Both the position numbers and the translations under genes were made by a program. A model generated the notes under the pieces. The model did no database searches. It saw only the letters and a list, made by a program, of their open reading frames with translations, and was not told the DNA's origin. This document shows, piece by piece, positions 1 through 50,445 of a stretch of DNA of 64,000 nucleotides; positions within the stretch are counted from its first letter, which is position 1; each line of letters begins with the position of its first letter. The stretch is taken from NCBI GenBank assembly GCA_964019135.1, contig OZ025261.1, positions 29,248,029-29,312,028 of the forward strand, written 5' to 3'. This DNA comes from Arenicola marina (lineage: Eukaryota > Annelida > Polychaeta > Arenicolidae).

Positions 1-1975
1 TTTGAAAAAACGATGATAGCGGACATGTCGTTGTTTTAGACCACTATTTTGTCCTTAAAGGAAGAAACCTCCCCTGGACAATGTTACAGCTTTGGGTGAA
101 CCGTGACCTTCGGCACCAAGGCGCGAACGAACGACCGCCACATATATGCGATTCCCCAGGAAGCGCCGGGCAGTGCTGCCGAATCGTCCCATTCACAGAA
201 GTCACTGTCTGTGATGAGTTCGTGCTGCGGCGGCTGCCGCTGTTGCATAATCTCCGCCCGCTTAATGGTGATAGCTAGGTAATAACAACAGAACATCGAA
301 GGCATAAGCTTCAACAGGACGTCTAAACGTCTATCCCGAAAGTCTGCATCAATCACCTTACACTACACCACACTTCACCACACCACACCACCTACGTCAC
401 CCCACTTACACCGCAACACACTACACCACATGAACGGTCATCCCGCAACCTTAAACAACACTTTGCAATACGCCAAACCATCACCCTCGCCTCTCGCCTG
501 GACTACAACAAAGGGCCGTCCTACCTGGCTGACCTGCTCAGCCGTCGCCTCCAGGTCCACAGCCATCCATAAACGGTGCCGATTAGATCCTTCCCCGATA
601 GCGAGGCTCTCTGAAGCAGGCATCCCGCCCGATAAGACATATATTTCATCGCACTCGCTTAAGTAAAACTTAATTAAATATAATTCTACCTTCAGGCCAA
701 CGTTTAAGACATTTAGGAAATATGCCTTCGTCGTAACTGCGCTAAAGATTTTCTGACGTATGAATTATGTTAGTAAATGTCGCGTCGTCCATCAAGCTAG
801 AAATATGGGTCTTCATTTGGGTAGACCCACATGTTCCCGTGACGTCACCTCTATCGAAATTAGGTTCGAAATTACCGTGGCTTCTCATTAGTCACAATCG
901 AATGAGTACGATACCAGGAACAGAGTAAATGGTAAAAGTGATGTAATTGAGGCCAAACTTATGCACGAGAGAGCCACTCACAATTCATGATTCCTACTTG
1001 AGATGTCTGGCTTTGTTTCCTTGAAGAAACATTGGAGCTGTCACCATTTGCAATATATCACCGAAAGAAATCGCCTCTATGCGCCATAATATGCCAGACC
1101 GGATGGCACCACGCTATCATGGTGTATTTTGATACTTAGCATCATTTATGTACATTATGTATCATAAGGATGAATTCCTGGAAGTACATCAATAAAACCC
1201 AACCATATCTGATCAAATTCAGCTGATCCAGTTCGATGTCCCTTGACCACAGCCCGCCCCCCCCCCTTGAAGTCCCTATCATTCAAGTCATATTAACCAG
1301 TCTTTCATCCGAAAAGCCCATTGTGAATAACACGTTAGGTGTAGACAGGGAGGCACAACGTAAAAAATCACTCATATCAACATTGCCATCCATAATATTT
1401 GACTAAAATTAATTTTCATAGTTACCACCCATCATCTTGCCAGCACTGTTTTTTTTTCGTGTTATCGAATTTATGGAGGAGGGCCGTAAAGATAGTACAT
1501 GATTTTCTTAATAGCGAGGATTTTTCCTAATTATCTAATATTTTCCACTTAACCGAATTTTATGACTAGGCCTTTTAATAATTTTGTACTGACAAACTTG
1601 GTACAATTCTGCTAAACTTACTTTTTCGTTCTTTATCTTACGATCATATCAAATTAAGTAAATAAGTAATCATAACGTGATGAATGCGGGTTGACCCTTT
1701 GTTGCATCTTGGTCTATTATATCGCCAACGTTGATGCTCCTCCGAAGGATACGAAGGATACGAAGGCATTAGGCCATTTATCTCTGCAGGGTCATCTCCG
1801 GAGTGGCGGAGGGAACCCCAATAGAACCGACCGGTCATTACGTTGACCCTTGGGCTTGCTAACTGCTCGTGTCATATCCCTCAATGTGTATTCTGATAAA
1901 AGATGGTTACATACTGTCTTTATGGCGATTTTCCTCAGCATAGGACAATAATATTTAATACATTTTGAGATATTG
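1..1975 (+). repeat. Partial copy A of the ~5.6 kb unit
   Basis: This stretch matches, in the same order, blocks of the two tandem units further on (about 15,050-15,180 plus 21,146-23,210, and 26,150-29,010). Landmarks are the block ending in GCGCCGGGCAGTGCTGCC near 160-180, the CA-rich tract near 360-440, the GCCTCCAGGTCCACAGCC block near 545-565 and the CGGAGGGAACCCCAATAGAA block near 1805-1825. About 370 bases present in the other copies after the 'cccgcccg' block are missing here. The copy is cut by the window start, and homology fades after about 1975. Open frames inside it are short and look incidental. The identities are my own by-eye alignment. Confidence 0.8.
358..440. repeat. CA-rich low-complexity tract (CACCACACCAC)
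   Basis: Degenerate CACCACACCACCTACG-like repeats. The same kind of tract occurs at the matching place in the other copies of the unit (21,305-21,590, 26,620-26,870 and 27,165-27,470). Confidence 0.8.
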
Positions 1976-2011
1976 CATGTTGTATGTATTCCGTACATAA
2001 TGGTTTCGTTC

Positions 2012-2225
2012 GGGACATAAGAGCCTCGCCCAACACATAATAGCCTCGCTCTCATAATAGTTCACTCAGTACATAATAAGCTTGCTCAACACATTATATT
2101 CTTGCTCAACACATGATAAACTTGATCAACACTTAATTGCCTTGCTCAACACATAATAATCTTGCTCAACACAACATAATAATAATTTTATTATGTATAT
2201 AGTAGCCCCGCCTAATACATAATTA
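2012..2225. repeat. Minisatellite, ~20-bp unit
   Basis: About nine imperfect copies of a 20-21 bp unit close to CTTGCTCAACACATAATAAG, running past the point where copy A of the 5.6 kb unit loses homology. Some copies carry CCTCGCCCAACACATAATAG. No coding potential is visible. Confidence 0.85.
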
Positions 2226-4026
2226 TTTGGGAGGATGCCTCGTCTGCTTTGATTGGGAAAATGTGCAAACCCATATCGGAGAGATGGATTGCTTAACATC
2301 ATTGATCGGCAGTCATCAAACCTAATTTCAAAATTGTTTAAGGATTGTCGGCAGCCAGCCAACTTTCAATTAACTTGTAGCATAATCACCAGTGGCTGTT
2401 AACTTCTCATGCTTGTATACTTTACGATATAACAATGATGTTAATTAGGATTAATGGCAACGTCATATGTAATATAAAAATCTAGTCCATGATAAGAGGA
2501 CACACGCAACTGGTAATGATACCCCTGCTGACAACATACCGGATAACTATACATTGACATGTATAATCCAGATTTTTGTGACAGAAATATTGGATATGCT
2601 ACATTACCGCAATAATAAAGGCGTCGTCTTCAGTTCAAGCTAATTCCCCCACTATCAGATTGTAATCGCCAATGTCTCGCAACCAGAGCCGCTTTTTTGT
2701 CTCCTATAAGATTGCATTTCACCCGATACCAATAATGTGGCGCCACATTAGCGTCATCTCTGTTTTAGGTAAGAAAGCTGGTCATATATCGCATGAAAAA
2801 TATCGATATATCGGTCACTATATAAACAATGCTCTTTTTATCAAATGTCACGGAAAAAATATTTACATGAAGTCACATATCAGAAGCAGAACTTGTGTTG
2901 GAAATTTATGTCTTTGATGATGTCAATAGAAACCCCACGCTATGTAACATCGTGCAATTTCTCCGCGATGCGTTCGAATTAAGAGAAAAACTGTTTCAAA
3001 GTGTTCCCTTATTTACTTGATGCTTACTTGCGTATATTTGTACTTTGAGGCTGTGAGCCTACAGTGCACAATAAACTTATTATTATCTTATCATATAAAC
3101 AAATGTACAAAAAGAACCGATGGGATTTTTGAAAGCTCTTTGATACCGAGCCGCCGTGATGAGGTTTCATGTTGTAAGACTAGAAAAAGTTTATTGAATA
3201 AATGCAGAGAAAAGTAATGACGAGGATTTTATTTTTTGAGTTGCCAATAAAAAACGTGGATGGATGGGGATAACTTGTCTACCATATAGCCTGGTCTCAT
3301 GCAGACATAGTGAAGGTCATGATGACAGGCTGACAGGAAGAAAGATCAATATATGATGACCTCGTGTCGTTTGTCAATATCAAATCAACTATACAGGTGG
3401 AGAAACTGAAAATGTTAGAGGAATGGGTCACATTTCGAGTGTTATGTCCTGTGTTACTGTGTTGCATATGAGCCTGTACCACACTCGGGATTATGCCCTA
3501 TTGGGTATTATGTTCCAGGATGCTACGCTGAACAAATTGAGAGCACATTTTCCTTCAACTTGTGTATGTGTATATATGACTCTCATATGCGTTGTATGTT
3601 TTTCTGACCATCAATTGTCATGATGAAATCGATACTGCGTCATAGGCATAATACCATACAACGTGATAGACCAAACGAGATTGGATCTTAATGACAACGA
3701 CAGTATGTGCGAAAATAATTTGTCACTACGCAGTTCACTCGCATCTTCCTTGACGAATTTGAAAGCTGTTATCTCACGATTTAGCACGTGGAACCAGGCT
3801 AACTGTGCAGCGGGCTTGGCGAGACAAGGGTGGGTCGCTCCCTTCTAGACTTCTAATGACGATATATTGCTAGATAACGATTTGATCTTGTATCTTACCG
3901 TATCAATACCTGCGTTGAACTTCAGTAAATGCACTGCTGGATCCCTGTACCCGGGTTGGCATCAGTCCGTCTGCGAAAGACGACGGGTTTGCAGCTTTTG
4001 TTTTGGTTTAAGTGGAAACAATTGTT
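2226..4026. other. No recognisable feature
   Basis: AT-rich sequence with only short scattered open frames on both strands. I see no domain, no splice-like conserved exon and no terminal repeat pair. Confidence 0.6.
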
Positions 4027-37603: not shown

Positions 37604-37618
37604 AAAGGTTTTGCGTAT
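37604..37618. repeat. Target-site duplication of the LINE, 3' side
   Basis: AAAGGTTTTGCGTAT, identical to 50,431-50,445 on the far side of the LINE. The poly(A) tail abuts it as a run of T on the plus strand from 37,618 to 37,637. Confidence 0.93.
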
Positions 37619-37768
37619 TTTTTTTTTTTTTTTTTTTGGTAAAATCGTTTATTTCGAATCCAAACAGTTGTGGGTACATAGCAGCCATACATCTGACATA
37701 TAAAACATTAGTTCGCAGCAAGTATATATTTAGGTATAATCTGACAATGTTGTCAAGATACTAATTTA

Positions 37769-41852: not shown

Positions 41853-42882
41853 TCACCTACGTATTGTCCTTTGAGTCTGATGTTGTAGGTATGCTGTCCT
41901 CTGGCGTGGAGTCTTTGTCATAGTTGTGTCCTCCGCTGGGGATCCTGATGGTTCTCTCTTTGCAGATCGTTCCCTTTGTTGGCTGATAAAGTGGGGGATA
42001 TCCTCCTCAGTTGCCCTCCCGAGCCTCCGACGAGGATCGGGCGGTAATGATGAGGCGGGTTTTCGGAAGCGTTGATGTGTTGTCTTTCGACTGGGGTCCC
42101 GTCCACGGATGAAAACATCAGCCAGGACAGATGTCTCGCGTGTTGAATCCTTGTCCGACTTTGTTCCGTCTTCTTTTGGAGTGTTGTCATGGTTTTGTTG
42201 TTCATTGCCCGTCTTTTTGGTTGGTTCTGGTTGCTCCGTTCTGGTAATAGATTGTGCCTTAATCTCCACCAACAAGGTTCCAAGGATATTTCTCCCCGGC
42301 CAGCAGCCAGGCCTTGTCTTTAGGGTATTCTCGTAGTTGAGGCCACTCCCCCATCGTTTGTCGGATGTAGCCTCAGCTATGGTTTCCTTGGTGTCTAGTT
42401 GCGCTTGCCTGAAGGTTGATACTTGGCTGGCTTTCTGCTCCAGTATGGCCTTCATTGTTGCCACGTTGTTATCCTCCCATGTGTCAGACAACTCCGTCGC
42501 AATGTTCTTACTCAGCTTTCGGGCCTCACCGGCATGAGCCGCCCGTTGAATCTGATTCGCTAGATCAGGTAAATCACAGTCCATGGCCTTCTTCCATTGA
42601 AAGGCATGTTCCGTGCTCAGGAATTTGTGTTCAAAAACACAAAATTCGGCCGTATGGAAATTTGACAGTATTTGCTCGTGTCCCCTGAATGCGGTGACAG
42701 TTTTCTCATTGCCTTTAGCCGGACAAGTGTCATCACCGGCTTTGTGGCCAGGTTTGCCACATGCGTTGCATTTGCGACTAAACTGGGCGGCGTGGAATAC
42801 TTTTCCACGTATCCCAGCTACTGATATTTGCCTGGGGAGGATTGGATCTACTGGAGCGTGCGCATAGCAGAACCGATCGCCT
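41853..42882 (-). CDS. LINE ORF1, C-terminal part: zinc knuckle plus NADAR domain
   Basis: The frame runs from 'GDRFCYAHAPVDPILPRQIS', right at the transposon edge, to a basic tail. First comes a zinc-knuckle-like motif 'CNACGKPGHKAGDDTC' (C-X2-C-X4-H-X6-C, a longer last spacing than the classical four). Then follows about 145 residues with the NADAR (YbiA-like) signature: 'LSNFHTAEFCVFEHKFLSTE', then HAFQWKKA, 'AGEARKLSK', 'MKAILEQKASQ', 'EATSDKRWGSGL' and 'GRNILGTLLVEI'. The conserved Glu of the EHA(F/Y)Q motif and the Trp of the RWGSG motif are present. In known families NADAR proteins act on ADP-ribose or riboflavin-pathway intermediates as glycosidases. Its role inside a retrotransposon ORF1 is unknown to me. 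The last ~120 residues are polar and low in complexity ('RKTTHQRFRKPASS'). Confidence 0.88.
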
Positions 42883-42990
42883 CCCAGTGGGCACCCGACG
42901 TCGGGAAGACGTCTTATATTGGTCGGTCGGTCGAAGACCACCTGAAGACCAGGTCAAGACCAATTTAGTCTGGTCGCAATGTGGTCTTGC

Positions 42991-43065
42991 GTCATAATTC
43001 AGACGTCCCACGTACGTCATAATTTAGACGTCCCACGTACGTCATAATTCAGACGTCCCACGTCT
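42991..43065. repeat. Three 25-bp subterminal repeats
   Basis: Three consecutive 25-bp units beginning GTCATAATTCAGACGTCCCA, differing at one or two bases. The GACGTC core recurs in the right flank of the same element. Confidence 0.9.
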
Positions 43066-43454
43066 GTCCTAGCTAACTTGGTCGGGCTCGGGTATGGGAT
43101 ATAAGCCTATACTTACATTCATCCAAAATGCTCCTTTTTCACGTTTACTAATATCTCGATTGCGATTATGAAATCGATCAGATTGACGCTAACTGCAATG
43201 TGTAAGCGAGGTGTGAAAGTCGAGCTCGGGCGGGCTACGAAATCCGTTGAGCTATAGACCGATTCCCGCTCAGTTTAAGCGGAGTACTAGCTTACGCGGA
43301 ATAATATATTTCCAATATTTGCCAGATTTATCATTTATATAATTCAAGGAGAATTCAATATACGAAAACATGTTTGCTTGAAACAAAGTGCTCACTGTAT
43401 GGAACCAACATTTATGGACTTAATATAAAGAGGGGATGGCGACCTACCCTTATG
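43066..43454. other. Unrecognised interior of the DNA element
   Basis: No repeat or reading frame of note between the subterminal repeats and the palindrome cluster. Confidence 0.5.
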
Positions 43455-43530
43455 AAAATATACCATGGTTTACCATGGTAAATCATACTATACCATGGTA
43501 TAGCATGGTATACCTTACCATGGTATACCT
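43455..43530. repeat. ACCATGGT palindrome cluster, left
   Basis: Six or so overlapping TACCATGGTA and TATACCATGGTATA palindromes. A larger cluster of the same words is found at 48,855-49,190, near the other end of the same DNA element, and I see it nowhere else in the window. Confidence 0.85.
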
Positions 43531-44350
43531 CCAGAGGAGGACTCTGAAAATGTGCGTTTGTAGAGCGAGTTTCCCGGGGAATATAATAAACCGAGCGGGC
43601 TCGGTCCAAGGAAAAAAATTCCCCTTCCGAGCGGATATTTTCGCGTTCAAACGTTCGAGCCGATTTTCGGGGTGAAACGCCCCTGACAAGCGTATTTTGG
43701 CGGTCAAGTAGTGGTTTACCGCGGACCCCGTCTGCCCCCCCCCCCCCACCCACCCCAGCCGCAAACCTAATAATGTACTGAGTCCCCCCACCCCACCCTG
43801 TGCCACAGCGCGCGAAGTGAGCAGTGCGCCACCAGGAGGCATATTACGCTGCCGCCTGGCGGAGATGCGCAGCGGAGATCCCACGGCGCATGCGCGAAGT
43901 TTTAAAAATATTGCGGAAAGGCGAGAGGAGTTCTGCGGCATGTGTATACGATTAGCTTATGTTCACGAATATTTGCTTATATACTGTATAGCACCTGAAA
44001 ACACCCAGGTTTGAGCGTAACACCTTAACATAAGGACAAAACGAGCGGCAGCCTCAGCTCAAATGGCTGCTTTCTCGGCATGCCGTAATCTCGCCCCCCG
44101 CCAGCCGAGCGCGAAGCCTCGCAGTGGAGGGGGGGGGGGGGGTGCATTAGCGTGCGGTGCCGAGTGCCGAGGAGCCGGCTTCGCTCTGGTTGGGGAGAGG
44201 GGTGGGGTGTTACTGGACAGTGGACCGAGGAAGCTAGTAGGTGGGGGGTGGCGTCGCGCACGGCATAATTCTTATGTTGGGGAGTGTCAATTTATTATGT
44301 GTGAAAAAGCCGTTACGACCGGTGGCTGGCTTAATGTCGATTGGTGTTGG

Positions 44351-44537
44351 AATGGAATGTTGGTGTTTTAGGCCACTTGTGTGCACATACAGGCTAAATT
44401 GGGCCAAGGAACCTCCCGAGACGATGAAGGATGAAGAAATGAAACATGCCCCAGATTAGGTGCCCGAGCCCGGATTCGAACCCAGGACCTATTGATCTGC
44501 GGTCTAGTGCGCTAACCACTACACCAGGGAGGCCCCC
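44351..44537 (-). mobile_element. tRNA-headed SINE with 13-bp duplication
   Basis: On the minus strand the SINE starts GGGGGGCCTCCCTGGTGTAG. It has an A box (TGGTGTAGTGGTTAGCGC) and a good B box (GGGTTCGAATCCGGG), then a body ending in a segment shared with other repeats here. The flanks CGATTGGTGTTGG at 44,338-44,350 and 44,538-44,550 are identical, so the insertion is complete. The anticodon region does not form a proper stem, so this is a SINE and not a tRNA gene. It lies inside the inverted-arm element, downstream of the protease gene. Confidence 0.9.
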
Positions 44538-44710
44538 CGATTGGTGTTGGTGCGAAAGGCATGAGGGCGGGCGGCGGGCGGCGAACTTAGTAGAAATAAA
44601 AACCTGAGAGCGGCGAAATAGGATTAAAAACCTGAGCAAGTGAAGGAACAGACACAAACACCGGTGTAAGTTAAATGAAGCATTTTATTTTATTTTATTA
44701 TTTATTTTAA

Positions 44711-45513
44711 TCATGAGCAATCCGAACAAAAGAAATCCTTATCCATCTCATTTACCGACATGTTAACACACTTTTTGAATAGCCACCTATCACAGACATT
44801 ACATTGCACCATATCGTCATAACATTGCGGCAGATGACAAGAGCAATACAATGGCAACTTAATCTTCCTATGCTTAACTTTCTTACTGGGAACGTCAAAT
44901 TTCGGAAAAGATCGAACACTTTTGTTCTTAATGATATCTATCAAACACGACCTCATCATATCTCGCTTAAACTCAAATCCTATCACGCCCTTCTTTAAAA
45001 GATCTCTATAGCCTCCGGAACAATACTCAATCAAACTAGCTATGGCAAATACGCCGCAATCCCATCCGTTCTGCTGTTGTTGCCCGACTGGCAGTATAAC
45101 ATCTAAAGAAGTTCGTCCGTGACCGTAAATCTGGGCTAGCTGGATCTCGAGGGAGGGGGTAAGTGGCTGCTGTGCCTTGTAGACGCTGTCTAATACATAC
45201 ACCGGCCCCCCAACTACATCTTGAAACGAAACTACCCAGTGATCCTTGCCGGTGTGATGGATCTGCCCACAAGGAGCCGGGACGCTCTGCAAGCTGGAGA
45301 GGGGTATCTGCCATGCTTCGTCCTTCCAAATAGGTGCAGCGGTGCTAAGTTGAAACCCGTTATGCGGGAACTTATCTCGTAACAAAGTAGAAGTAACTGC
45401 CATGTGATCACTACTCAACCACCCATTGCCTTCAATAACCCCGCAAAGCTCACTAATCTCGCTGTCCTCTTTAGCTTTCTTAGAATCTGGTGCCGAATCG
45501 ACCTTTGATGACT
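44711..45513 (-). CDS. Transposon-borne Ulp1-like cysteine protease with C-terminal PHD-type finger
   Basis: The C48 (Ulp1/SENP) protease fold is indicated by the catalytic series in order. Numbered from the Met at 45,418, these are H60 in 'GKDHWVVSF', D77 in 'VYVLDSVY', Q ~114 in 'LPVGQQQQNGWDCG' and the nucleophile C121. Family members cleave SUMO-like tags. In transposons the substrate is usually unknown. The C-terminal 45 residues form a PHD-like zinc finger (C192, C194, C206, C209, C217, C231, C234), but the expected His is Phe ('CDRWLFKKC' where W-x-H-x-x-C is usual), so metal binding may be impaired. The frame is open upstream to a stop at about 45,514 ('SSKVDSAPDSKKAKED'), with 'gtagatctag' just before it, so this may be a 3' exon. 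AATAAA-type signals lie downstream at 44,680-44,705. The rest of the transposon machinery is not recognisable. Confidence 0.82.
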
Positions 45514-46022
45514 AGATCTACGGCCGCCGCTGATTTTCAATTTTTTATTGATAATTGACTCCCCAAACGCGAAGCTGGAAAAAGGCTACTGTTAATGTGC
45601 TGGTCGAACGAATTTAATTCCACTTGTCCGATTCTCCCTTTGATGACAATTCCCCAAAATATAACACAGAGAAATCTACAGTTAATGTGATGGTACTAGG
45701 AAGTCAATTCTACTTGGCCGATTCCCCCCTCCCCCTACCCATCCCCTTTGCTCGCCACCTCGTATGGCTGTGTGCAGAGAAGTGTGCAGAGAAGCCCAGT
45801 AACACCCAACCCTACATGAATGAAACGGTAGCGATAAACTTTCCTTGTGTCTTGCCACACACCCACCCCTCTCCCCAACCAGAGTGAAGCCAGCTCCTCG
45901 GCGCTTGGCACCGCACGCTAATGCACCCCCCCCCCCCCTCCACCGCGAGACTTCACGCTCGGCTGACGGGGGGCGAGATTACGGCATGCCGAGAAAGCAG
46001 CCATTTGAGCTGAGGCTGCCGC

Positions 46023-46448
46023 CCGGAATGGTTTATGCAACGTTACACACTTATTTGGATACCTAAATCATCGGACTAAACATTTTCTGAATCTATGAGG
46101 TAAGGTCTTTGATAATAACGTGACAGATTTCACCTACATGCCTCCGCCAACTACATCGGCGCGGAAAAATTACTGCGGCGCCGCAGTAAATTACATCCTA
46201 CAAAATATCCTGGCCCTTTATAAATTGAAATTTGTTTACAGTCTTGTCAACGGCAGACTGGTCATACCACTCCTCCCCCCCCCCCCCCCCCAACCCCGCC
46301 ACCGGCCCGTGTCAGTTGATTTACGTCGCCTGTACAGCCACTGGCACTGACATACCAGGAACCCTCTACACTACAGTACAGGAACCCCAAGCGCCGGGTG
46401 AAATGGCAAACGCCCCAGGTCGATCTGGAGCTTGTGGTTCGATACTCA
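46023..46448. other. Unrecognised interior of the DNA element
   Basis: Includes a C17 run near 46,274-46,291. No gene is seen. Confidence 0.5.
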
Positions 46449-47170
46449 GGTTACACAGGCACGATAGAATGCAGGCAAAAATCCTGGGGCGATACAGCTC
46501 GAGACGCGCACCTGGCTTGTCCTTCGGACTGCGGGGCCCAAACTTACTTTTTTTTAATGCAGTTTCCATAAATCTCGCCCGCACGGGGGGTTGCAGCCAC
46601 ACAGCAAACACTTATATTATCACAAGGAACAAATATTCGTGCACGAAACAGACAGTTCGCCATTTGTTTCCAATATGGTTGAAGCGGAGTCACGAGCCGC
46701 TTGTTCGTACACGAAAATTGAAAAAAATTGACGTGTGTACTGTGTGTCTTGACGCCAGACTATGAGGCATCTGGGCAATGCACGTGCAGTTACGCGTCAC
46801 GATTGAATCTGGGTATTGCGAATTATTTCGTTGTTTAGATTTCATGTACGAACAAGCGGCGCGTGACTCTGCTTCAGCCATATTGGAAACAAACGGCGAA
46901 GGATTTCATGTACGAACAAGCGGCGCGTGACTCCGCTTCAGCCATATTGGAAACAAACGGCGAACTGTCTGTTTCGTGCACGAATATTTGTTCCTTGTGA
47001 TAATATAAGTGTTTGCTGTGTGGCTGCAACCCCCCGTGCGGGCGAGATTTATGGAAGCTGCATTAAAAAAAGTAAGTTTGGGCCCCGCAGTCCGAAGAAC
47101 AAGCCAGGTGCGCGTCTCAAGCTGTATCGCCCCAGGATTTTTGCCTGCATTCTATCGTGCCTATGTAACC
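46449..47170. repeat. Fold-back repeat with ~265-bp arms
   Basis: The left arm 46,449-46,716 and right arm 46,905-47,170 are inverted copies. Paired words include GGTTACACAGGCACGATAG against CTATCGTGCCTATGTAACC, and 'gttgcagccacacagcaaac' against its complement. The loop contains an extra copy of the inner arm end, a tandem 62-65 bp duplication at 46,839-46,965. The open frames on both strands are mirror images produced by the arms. Confidence 0.92.
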
Positions 47171-47208
47171 CCCCGTGGTGGAATAGGCACTCGCGTCTAT
47201 GTGTCCCC

Positions 47209-47351
47209 CTATACTATAGCACAGGCGCTCAGATTTGTTGACAAACAATACCCCAAGCCAAGGCAAGGGTCAAGCACCTATAAAGAAAGGTGCTTGACCC
47301 TTGGGGTATTGTTTGTCAACAAACCGGAGCGCCTTTGCCCTATAGTATAGG
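47209..47351. repeat. Tight hairpin, ~63-bp arms
   Basis: The left arm starts CCTATACTATAG and runs through 'tttgttgacaaacaatacc' to 'gggtcaagcacc' (47,278). The right arm 47,289-47,351 is its complement. The loop is about 10 bases ('tataaagaaa'). The left arm has about ten extra bases ('gccaaggcaa'). It is distinct from a terminator. A decayed palindromic element or a hairpin-forming MITE is more likely. Confidence 0.88.
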
Positions 47352-48854
47352 CTATACTGCCACACTAGCCTGGGGCCATTTTCATGGAACCTAGGTGCGC
47401 TAGCCGTTCGCCCCATCGCCAATGGCGAAAGCAAATTCTATGGGGCGCAAGACTGGCCCATACATGTCGCCACATTGACGAAAAAAAAAAGTGGCCTGGT
47501 TTTTGATTAACGATCAAAACACAACTTAGCCAAACTGATTGCCTGCCGTGATACGGAGGGGAAAAATACAACATATATGTGGCTAATGGGATCTGTGTGT
47601 GGCTAAAGTAAATTGAAGGTGTTTAGCCACAGTGGCTAATTGAAATGAATTTCTAGAGCACACCCAGTGAAACCATCGTCTGTTCGTATGTGTATGAAAA
47701 TTTGTACAGAGATTGGGACCCATAAGTCCTATTTCCCTCGTTAACATAAGTTACTTTAGGTTGAAGGCCACATGCCGTTCTGTTACTCAGGGAAACTTTC
47801 AATGGCTCAGGGAAAAACCAGGGAATTGTTTTAGTGTTTCATGTGGGAACCATGTGCCACGGTATGGTCTTGGTTTTAGGCTATACCATTTATAAAATTA
47901 TCTTTGGTATTTATTTTGCTTCTTACGTGATGTATTAATAAATGTGGTACAAACTTTTGTATGATATCTTTCCAACATATTACCATCCATGTCTTATAAT
48001 GCTAAACAACACTAGTGAATAATAATTTACTAAGATGATAAGTGTATCCTTTGTTACAGATCAGGTCAGGAGAAATTTTGTGGCAAGGATGTAAAAGAAA
48101 TATGCAAGTTAATGCGAGAGAAGATCAGCAATGTGGTACAGACTGAAAAGAAGAACTGAAGGATCTACTTGTTTTATCAATTGAAATGAATATATTTGTA
48201 TATAAAGTATTGTTTATATATATGTTATATGCATTGAGTAGTAGTCATTTAAAAGTTGAGTAGTAGTTATATATAGTAGTTCCAAAGTACTGCATGGTAG
48301 TGCGTCTCATTCTGAGGTGGAATTGGTATGTATTAGTTAGGAATAAGACAGATTACTTTATCAATTCAATTATAACTAGATTAGAAGTAGATTCCTGCAT
48401 ATGAGTTAGAGTATACATATTATTTGGGTAGATATCCAATACAGCTGTTTTTTCCATAATGGCATTTTCTTTCAATTCCTTCAAATGTATACATTGTAAA
48501 CTGAACACAATTGAATTCAATATTTAAACAAGCATTGTCACTTTAAAAATAAATTATGTAAAATTTAAAATGTAATGTGTGGAAAATGTGCATAAAAATG
48601 ATGCTGCTGTATGGTGTATAATAATATTATTTGTGGATTTACTTTGTATGTCAATATGCATATAAGCAATGTACATTTCTTTACATAATGGTAGCTTATT
48701 TTGCTAATATATCTATATGAGCTAAATATATGTATATAATGTGCATGTCACATGTTCACATACTGCACCTTTTTATATTAATACATATATGAAAGCGGAT
48801 TGTGTATTTCTTTATTCTTGTATTTTTCAGACTTGATGTCGATTAGTGCCTTAG
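47352..48854. other. AT-rich interior of the DNA element, no gene seen
   Basis: Contains several 'tggctaa' words near 47,580-47,640 and 'gtagtagt' words near 48,235-48,275. No domain. Confidence 0.5.
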
Positions 48855-49190
48855 TATACCATGGTATCCATGTAGTAAAGTATCATGGTATACATACCTT
48901 GGTAAGATACCATGTTACATTAGCATACCATGGTATGATACCATGGTAAATACCATGGCATAATACCATGGTAAATTACCATGGTACATTATACCATGGT
49001 ATACCATGGTGTTTTGGCGATGGTAATTTACCATGGTATACCATTTAATATTACCGGGGACCATGGTAATTTATCATTGTATACCATATAATATTACCAT
49101 GGTAAAATACCTTCGCCAAAACACCATGGTATACCATGGTAACCATGTTAAAACACCATGGTATACCACGGTAACCATGTTAAAATACCA
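48855..49190. repeat. ACCATGGT palindrome array, right
   Basis: About twenty TACCATGGTA, TATACCATGGTATA and related palindromes. A larger inverted pair is embedded: the segment from 'accatggtataccatggtgt' to 'ggcgatggtaattt' near 48,990-49,030 is mirrored by 'ggtaaaataccttcgcc' and 'aaaacaccatggtataccat' near 49,098-49,138. Cruciform formation is plausible. Confidence 0.9.
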
Positions 49191-49404
49191 TATACATGTA
49201 TTATCCTATTATATCCTGAATGTATTTCTTTGTTTTACTTGTATTGAATTGAATGCAAGGGCTCTAGGGGCCAGGGTATTAGCCGGGTTTTTTTGCCAGC
49301 CAAAAGCGTTCCCCCGCCCCTTGGATCCTCCACTGGGCTACAAACTGTATCTTTGCTATGTATTTCGTCAGAGAACCCAACTTTTACCATTACTTTCGTT
49401 TCTG

Positions 49405-49600
49405 TGACTACGTCCTGAAGACATCTTACCGAACACGTCTCTTCGACTGAAGATGTCTTTTAGACGTCTTCTTCGACACGTCTCTTCGACGTTTTACTGA
49501 AGACGTATTTTAGACGTCTTTTTCGACACGCCTCTTCGACGTGTTACTGAAGACGTATTTTAGACGTCTTCTTTAACAAGTCATCAAGACGTCCAAAAAA
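49405..49600. repeat. ~50-bp GACGTC subterminal repeats
   Basis: About three and a half copies of a 50-bp unit with words ACTGAAGACGTATTTTAGAC, 'gtctttttcgacac' and 'gcctcttcgacgtgtt', close to the right terminus of the DNA element. It matches the left side in its GACGTC content but not in unit length. Confidence 0.88.
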
Positions 49601-49705
49601 AGACGTCGTGCAGACTTCCACCTGGGACCAGCTGAAGGCTGGTTCCCGACGACTAGAATAGACGTCTTTGGGACGTCTTACCGACCAGAGTGTGCCCACT
49701 GGGCT

Positions 49706-50193
49706 GTTTTGTAGTCGGTTAGTCGCCCATTATCGTCGCGCGCTTTGGCTTCAATAATGTCAGATGCCAAACGTACGCCTTTATCTTGTAATAACTGCCT
49801 GATTTCCACATTGCTGACGGATTGGGGAATGTATTTGACAGTTATTTTTTCACGCAGATCTTGTGGAGAGATTTGTTTGGTGATCAACGGGTTTTTGTCA
49901 TATAATGGGACCAGCACGCCATTGATACAGAGCTCTTTGCGAATGAGTAGCTCCACGCGTGCTTGTCGATTCTTGAAGTAGAGCCGCCAGACCTTACCAG
50001 CGCCGACGATCTTCTTGATTGCTTCACAAACCGTGAAGGTCGTTAAGTCAGAGTGTAGATTTCCACTCGTAACCTTTTCTCTGAAGTCTCTATATCTGAA
50101 GAACAGCGGCTCAACTGACACATTTGTGATATGCTCAGTGTTAGTTCCGCCCTCGGCCATGGTGTGAGTTGATTGTCCTGTGCAATGGTGCAA
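49706..50193 (-). CDS. LINE ORF1, N-terminal part
   Basis: About 162 codons from the ATG at 50,193 ('MHHCTGQSTHTMAEGG'; the Met at residue 12 is also a plausible start) to 'GRLTDYKT', where the DNA element begins. Segments such as 'KIVGAGKVWRLYFKNRQARV' and 'ITVKYIPQSVSNVEIRQLLQ' look like two RRM-type RNA-binding folds, as expected for an ORF1 protein that coats element RNA. That domain reading is an inference from the pattern. The remainder of ORF1 (zinc knuckle and NADAR) lies at 42,882-41,853, beyond the insertion. Both halves are in the same frame once the 6,821-bp element and one copy of its 2-bp duplication are discounted. Confidence 0.85.
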
Positions 50194-50430
50194 AGAAACG
50201 AACAGAAAATAACCAACGTGCTTCGCAAAGTTTCAAACAAAGCTAAATGTTCCAAAATCTGTATAAATATCTATGTCACAGATGATATATGCGGAAGCTG
50301 TAGTTGTTCCTCTATATCCCGTACAAATCCCGTGAGATAGAAGCACGCCGCTATCTCACGAATGTCATAAATCCCAGAGCTCTGGTTTTCATCGACCCGG
50401 TGTTCAAGGGATCACGTGACCAATATTTGG

Positions 50431-50445
50431 AAAGGTTTTGCGTAT
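50431..50445. repeat. Target-site duplication of the LINE, 5' side
   Basis: AAAGGTTTTGCGTAT, identical to 37,604-37,618. It marks the 5' end of the full-length LINE. Confidence 0.93.

Follow-up and report, generated by a model that had tools for sequence, protein, structure and literature searches.

NADAR domains fused to the ORF1 proteins of several LINE lineages in the annelid Arenicola marina

Several LINE lineages in the genome of Arenicola marina encode an ORF1 product that is almost certainly an RNA-coating protein to which a NADAR domain has been added behind the RNA-binding part. The copy number of the fusion and the phylogenetic tree (see below) establish that it is a stable and repeatedly acquired part of these elements and not a single-copy chance event. 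The element described in most detail lies in the window, i.e. the complete stretch of 64,000 nucleotides analysed here (contig OZ025261.1, positions 29,248,029–29,312,028; C14 in our numbering of contigs), and the 867-Mb assembly was searched for further members. In keeping with an annelid host, its mitochondrial genes, identified by eye from translations, follow the order nad3-nad2-cox1-cox2-atp8-cox3, and the family Eryth_link_C, a marker of annelid haemoglobin linkers, exceeds its cut-off in 4 places; the sea-urchin family Bindin gave no match, which carries no information on the host.

The NADAR-bearing ORF1 frame of the window element is located on the minus strand (42,941–41,853) and contains all five sequence motifs on which the original prediction of a NADAR domain had been based. 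The assignment is confirmed by the Pfam NADAR profile PF08719, which matches residues 89–229 (42,255–42,677, minus strand) with 70.7 bits (cut-off 35.1; E 2.2e-19), and a sequence search of the PDB with the same ORF1 led to the NADAR entry 8bau (E 2.9e-4). Mapped onto 8bau, the window domain displays E43, K50, K79, W89, N93, E125, D130 and W133, so that the key Glu and Trp are retained as predicted. Position 125 carries Glu instead of Asp or His, which together with E43 and K50 places the domain in the YbiA subfamily. It is indeed positioned behind a zinc knuckle (residues 56–79; 42,705–42,776, minus strand), whose match to zf-CCHC_6 is under the cut-off (17.1 bits, cut-off 22; E 0.005) and whose C, C, H and C residues are invariant in 10 of 10 aligned ORF1s. 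In the AlphaFold2 model of the ORF1 of L011, an uninterrupted member of the same family, the NADAR region reaches pLDDT values of ~90–97, mostly >90, and the best Foldseek matches are 8bau (E 8.5e-9) and YbiA (E 7.1e-7), followed by tandem-RRM proteins. Judged from this model, the L011 ORF1 carries the predicted NADAR/YbiA fold.

The window element has the characteristics of an L1-superfamily LINE, namely an APE endonuclease, an L1-like reverse transcriptase (RT), a poly(A) tail and a target-site duplication; the endonuclease was assigned via the family member L010, in which the profile was matched. The target-site duplication is an exact 15-bp repeat, AAAGGTTTTGCGTAT, found at 37,604–37,618 on the 3′ side and at 50,431–50,445 on the 5′ side of the LINE, and when up to 3,000 pairs of 80-base stretches were drawn at random, none gave an equal match. 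Adjacent to its 3′ copy, the poly(A) tail of the minus-strand element is visible as a T-run on the plus strand (37,619–37,637). ORF2, which among solved structures is closest to human LINE-1 ORF2p (E 3.6e-44), is distributed over two overlapping minus-strand frames, 41,441–39,462 with the L1-like endonuclease and the RT (RVT_1, E 3e-18) and 39,547–37,772 with the C-terminal zf-RVT part (PF13966, E 5.4e-7). The C-terminal part of ORF1 with knuckle, NADAR and disordered tail (41,853–42,882, minus strand) is separated from the N-terminal part with the tandem RRM region (49,704–50,193, minus strand; assigned by blastn to L011 and a protein match) by a nested DNA-transposon-like insertion (42,883–49,702), which is bounded by 12-bp inverted ends, CCCAGTGGGCAC, and shows what looks like a 2-bp duplication of AG. 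L011, with an open frame of 528 aa, aligns in blastn with window positions 50,420–49,704 (92.6% identity) and 42,882–41,862 (97.7% identity) and lacks the ~6.8 kb between these blocks. As L011 is continuous across the site, position 42,882, which is also the end point given for the ORF1 segment in the original prediction, represents the insertion breakpoint, and the ORF1 start (~160 residues) is displaced by 6.8 kb from the remainder.

The window copy of the LINE is therefore dead, since the insertion cuts ORF1 and ORF2 lies in two frames. Its earlier description as a full-length LINE is valid for the ends of the element, as defined by the target-site duplication and the poly(A) tail, but not for its reading frames, of which ORF1 is interrupted from 42,883 to ~49,702 and ORF2 is split. 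The notion of a copy kept intact has to be transferred from the window to other copies, 24 of which combine an open ORF1 of at least 490 aa with an open ORF2 of at least 1,240 aa among the 51 ORF1 and 35 endonuclease matches listed. The nested insertion contains a 235-aa minus-strand frame (44,711–45,418) with a PHD match under the cut-off, which we take to resemble an Ulp1-type protease, and holds further nested inverted repeats. Large imperfect inverted repeats at 46,449–47,170, with 183-nt arms of 93% and 106-nt arms of 97% complementarity, probably constitute a nested foldback element, and the palindrome TACCATGGTA clusters at 43,457–43,529 and 48,914–49,175, close to both ends of the insertion.

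At least 150 NADAR places are present in the genome (Pfam scored 150 of 317 candidates, and all 150 exceeded the cut-off). At least 84 of them have a LINE endonuclease in the same orientation no more than 4 kb downstream, compared with one pairing at 1.5–8 kb upstream and none downstream on the opposite strand as controls; a third endonuclease list pairs nine more, which raises the number to at least 93 and leaves 57 unpaired among the matches listed. L040 is a multi-copy family with a 591-aa ORF1 directly followed by endonuclease and RT. The N-terminus of the window-type ORF1, extending as far as the knuckle, was detected at 102 places, and in 87 of these a listed NADAR match comes next. Seven of the other 15 were fetched and all encode NADAR in disturbed frames, including one (L079) of the catalytically dead L054 type (see below), so that NADAR is shown in all 94 examined of the 102 places. 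The original prediction had named NADAR-less relatives as the sign of an accidental fusion; within the window ORF1 type related copies keep the domain, and this retention together with the at least 150 NADAR places rules out a chance host-gene fusion in one copy. LINEs with the L1-type ORF1, by contrast, do have sisters that lack NADAR. Among another seven fetched loci, four (L043, L044, L045 and L049) encode an L1-type-looking ORF1 of ~300–324 aa, and none of 32 NADAR queries matched there; L047 and L048 hold 5′-truncated copies of NADAR-type elements, and L046 contains neither a 140-aa frame nor a NADAR.

The NADAR is attached to different ORF1 architectures. Group A, consisting of the window family and families with ORF1s of 497–664 aa, is organized as tandem RRM–CCHC–NADAR–disordered tail and has the RRMs directly before the CCHC knuckle that define type I LINE ORF1s, as indicated by the L011 model, its tandem-RRM Foldseek matches and the knuckle conserved in 10 of 10. 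Group B, i.e. L001 and kin, has the order coiled coil–RRM–CTD–NADAR. Sequence searches of Pfam and the PDB did not link the L001-type ORF1 to L1 ORF1p; its AlphaFold2 model was related by Foldseek to human LINE-1 ORF1p (2ykq, E 1.9e-8) and to 8bau (E 2.2e-8). According to this model, the L001 group possesses the coiled coil–RRM–CTD arrangement of type II (L1-type) ORF1s. In terms of the published scheme of five LINE ORF1 types (PMC4120745), groups A and B correspond to types I and II, respectively, plus NADAR. The endonucleases of the two groups are 36% identical; the L001 one has matches among those of L1 (E 2.6e-15). A third case is provided by L042/L059, where an L1-type ORF1 with NADAR lies upstream of an endonuclease–RT unlike that of L1, which has no PDB relative at E 0.01; the RT of the L042-type element shares 25% identity with that of the window element. 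Based on its motifs, this ORF2 presumably resembles the Jockey superfamily. In L059 (1787–2299), the ORF2 of this non-L1-type NADAR LINE opens with a hydrophobic stretch and the sequence GDIELNPGP, which we assume to be a 2A-like motif. In the 664-aa family (L027, L028 and L047), the tail of ORF1 contains an expandable repeat, AVADSAPSGEKPSHA, which accounts for most of the 773-aa open frame running to the locus end in L028.

A tree of 27 NADARs unites group A with L040 and the protein L041 (95/96) and places L042/L059 beside bacterial sequences. A single origin of all LINE NADARs was rejected for this tree (p-AU 0.0073) and likewise for a tree with 11 free-standing sequences and two long rows removed (p-AU 0.0012), in which L042/L059 are found within a bacterial/phage group (98/95, 95/90). 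A common origin of the NADARs in the L1 superfamily (groups A, A2 and B-main) was not rejected (p-AU 0.096). With a Caballeronia protein the L042-type NADAR shares 45% identity, whereas that of its near-copy L059 is 29–32% identical to five other group B NADARs; a search by peptide patterns found no bacterial genome locus. Since the tree rejects one clade and the L042-type NADAR is nearer to the bacterial than to the group B ones, LINEs have apparently captured the domain at least twice, a conclusion to be read with caution in view of the long branches and the one eukaryotic free-standing reference in these trees. L041 contains an 862-aa open frame (511–3096) with two tandem NADARs, both equipped with all eight active-site residues, as well as an N-terminal linker-histone match under the cut-off and long charged repeats. 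None of four LINE endonuclease queries matched its 5.5-kb locus, and its grouping with the group A LINE NADARs suggests that L041 either has been domesticated or is related to the donor.

The active-site residues were compared in 16 family representatives mapped on 8bau (near-duplicates merged, truncated L004 left out). Fourteen of them retain E43, E125 and W133; among these, position 50 is occupied by Lys (10) or Arg (4) and position 130 by Asp (12) or Asn (2), while W89 is aligned in 12. The set of E43, K/R50 and E125 is lost in the other two. In these exceptional lineages, L054/L055 and L042/L059/L064, Asp stands in place of E43 and either Val or Ala in place of E125, and the NADAR domain is nevertheless present with Pfam scores of 47 (L054) and 108 bits (L042), which implies that catalysis is dispensable in some elements. 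Arg occupies position 79 in 3 and position 93 in 3 of the 16 representatives, whereas all six free-standing NADARs of the same comparison have Arg at 79 and either Arg or Lys at 93. In PMC11543638, from which the residue roles are adopted, mutations of the E43, K50 and E125 equivalents impair a bacterial NADAR, K50R being tolerated in vitro, and the equivalents of R79 and R93 are phosphate-binding arginines. Their loss from most ORF1 NADARs suggests an altered ligand binding, and the binding of ADP-ribose may be changed.

Selection was analysed as dN/dS from nucleotide alignments of copies, with L011 as reference within the window family. Between L036 and L027 the NADARs are 73% identical (dN 0.22) and the RRMs 71% (dN 0.18), dN/dS not being computable for most between-family pairs because dS is saturated. 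Within the window family dN of NADAR equals or exceeds dS in 4 of 14 copies, and the RRM part has dN < dS in all 10 copies with data; the window copy itself differs from L011 by six nonsynonymous and one synonymous NADAR substitutions. This within-family test is blurred by neutral decay, as several copies carry stops or frameshifts. With respect to the test for purifying selection suggested in the original prediction, the NADAR protein is kept between families at saturated dS, while the picture is weaker inside the window family.

With somewhat less than even confidence, we regard an RNP-tethered ADP-ribose hydrolase that reverses host ADP-ribosylation as the likeliest role of the domain; its activity, substrate and benefit we infer from the data above. 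In this scenario, ORF1p would bind the LINE RNA and thereby bring the tethered ADP-ribose N-glycosyl hydrolase to the RNP or the cDNA. There it would remove ADP-ribose placed by host transferases on guanine bases or RNP components, and translation and target-primed reverse transcription could then proceed. The mechanism is supported by the NADAR fold in both AlphaFold2 models, the RNA-binding partner domains, the catalytic residues in 14 of 16 representatives, the at least two apparent captures and the 24 open copies among the matches listed. NADARs hydrolyse ADP-ribosyl-guanine and guanine de-ADP-ribosylation is reported for eukaryotic members as well (PMC11543638), and NADARs are also carried by RNA viruses whose hosts include annelids and bivalves (PMC9503650). 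The proposal is weakened by the predominant loss of the pyrophosphate-binding arginines, the missing catalytic Glu in two lineages, the four NADAR-less L1-type sisters and dN ≥ dS in the window-family copies mentioned.

The altered R79/R93 positions and the catalytically dead lineages are the reason for our reserve and for considering, as a possible but rather doubtful alternative, that NADAR serves as a non-catalytic module. It might bind to a partner protein, to an ADP-ribosyl mark or to nucleic acid and thereby aid RNP assembly, nuclear entry or target choice, with the catalytic residues staying where binding needs them and disappearing elsewhere. The persistence of the NADAR domain in the two lineages devoid of E43 and E125 conforms to this idea. 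However, E43, K/R50, E125 and W133 are kept together in the 14 other representatives while neighbouring ligand-contact positions drift, which points to chemistry, and in the nematode protein SNA-3 key-residue mutations in domains 2 and 3 are reported to harm function (PMC9303266). Less probable still is an action on RNA ends or small NAD-derived molecules, such as NAD-capped RNA, ADP-ribose phosphate or riboflavin intermediates, which would prepare LINE RNA or primer ends without any counter-defence. NADARs have been associated with RNA-repair and NAD pathways (PMC9503650), a processing of RNA intermediates is proposed in an Ectocarpus paper (PMC12477816), and the NCBIfam riboflavin N-glycosidase model TIGR02464 scores above its cut-off in L001, L042 and L041. 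Against this, the window ORF1 remains below that cut-off (67.6 versus 73.7 bits), L042 passes it despite its lost E43 and E125, and no end-processing partner domain was detected by Pfam in the scanned ORF1 and ORF2 parts. That NADAR is only a weakly selected, tolerated passenger carried along with ORF1 would agree with its weak constraint inside the window family and the NADAR-less sisters L043, L044, L045 and L049, but is very unlikely given its between-family conservation close to that of the RRMs, the recurrent capture and the retention at the window-type places.

Returning to the hydrolase role, in a more far-reaching and rather improbable version NADAR would have entered animal LINEs independently in at least two RT lineages, in one case from a bacterial-like source, and would serve to reverse the ADP-ribosylation that the host places on their nucleic acids or RNPs; the Glu-less lineages would have converted it into an ADP-ribose reader or decoy. 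If true, invertebrates would use ADP-ribosylation as a so far unrecognised line of defence against retrotransposons. Even in its simpler form, a reversal of ADP-ribosylation by NADAR would point to an overlooked host defence against these elements, and the NADAR fusions with their at least two apparent captures hint that host ADP-ribosylation and retrotransposons are in a conflict that has so far gone unexplored. What NADARs do physiologically outside DarT operons, in animals too, is described as unclear (PMC11125620), and NADAR-ORF1 LINEs offer a tractable system with a single protein, well-defined catalytic residues and naturally occurring dead variants.

The core observation, NADAR in a LINE ORF1, is not new, since it is already in print: PMC12477816 reports, in a few sentences, NADAR in the Gypsy Pol of Ectocarpus and, as divergent Repbase hits, in the Tx1 LINE ORF1 of Crassostrea gigas (Pacific oyster), and thus the same YbiA-type NADAR in the ORF1 of L1-superfamily LINEs. 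Compared with what is accessible of that report, the annelid host, the second (L1-type) ORF1 architecture, the lineages without catalytic residues and the LINE combining a non-L1 ORF2 with a bacterial-like NADAR are added here. Among the matches listed from the open-licence literature, none of the other papers described a LINE with NADAR, and we have not seen the annelid host, the two ORF1 types, the separate captures or the catalytically dead forms in print. Human LINE-1 ORF1p (2ykq) has the coiled coil–RRM–CTD architecture in common with the L001-type ORF1 and, to our knowledge, contains no NADAR. Compared with the NADAR–ADP-ribose complex of Phytophthora nicotianae (PDB 8bau; PMC11543638), the LINE NADARs have the same fold, and 14 of the 16 families also possess its catalytic E43, K50 (or Arg) and E125; the LINE NADARs differ from it by the replacement of R79 and of R93 in 13 of 16 families each and by their fusion to RNA-binding domains. 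The available sections on the five ORF1 types mention no NADAR (PMC4120745), but the esterase-bearing type IV ORF1s (PMC4120745, PMC3905857) likewise received a hydrolase, an enzyme unrelated to NADAR. Finally, SNA-3 of nematodes (PMC9303266) also places NADARs in an RNA-processing protein, which, however, is the product of a host gene with three NADARs and not of a mobile element.
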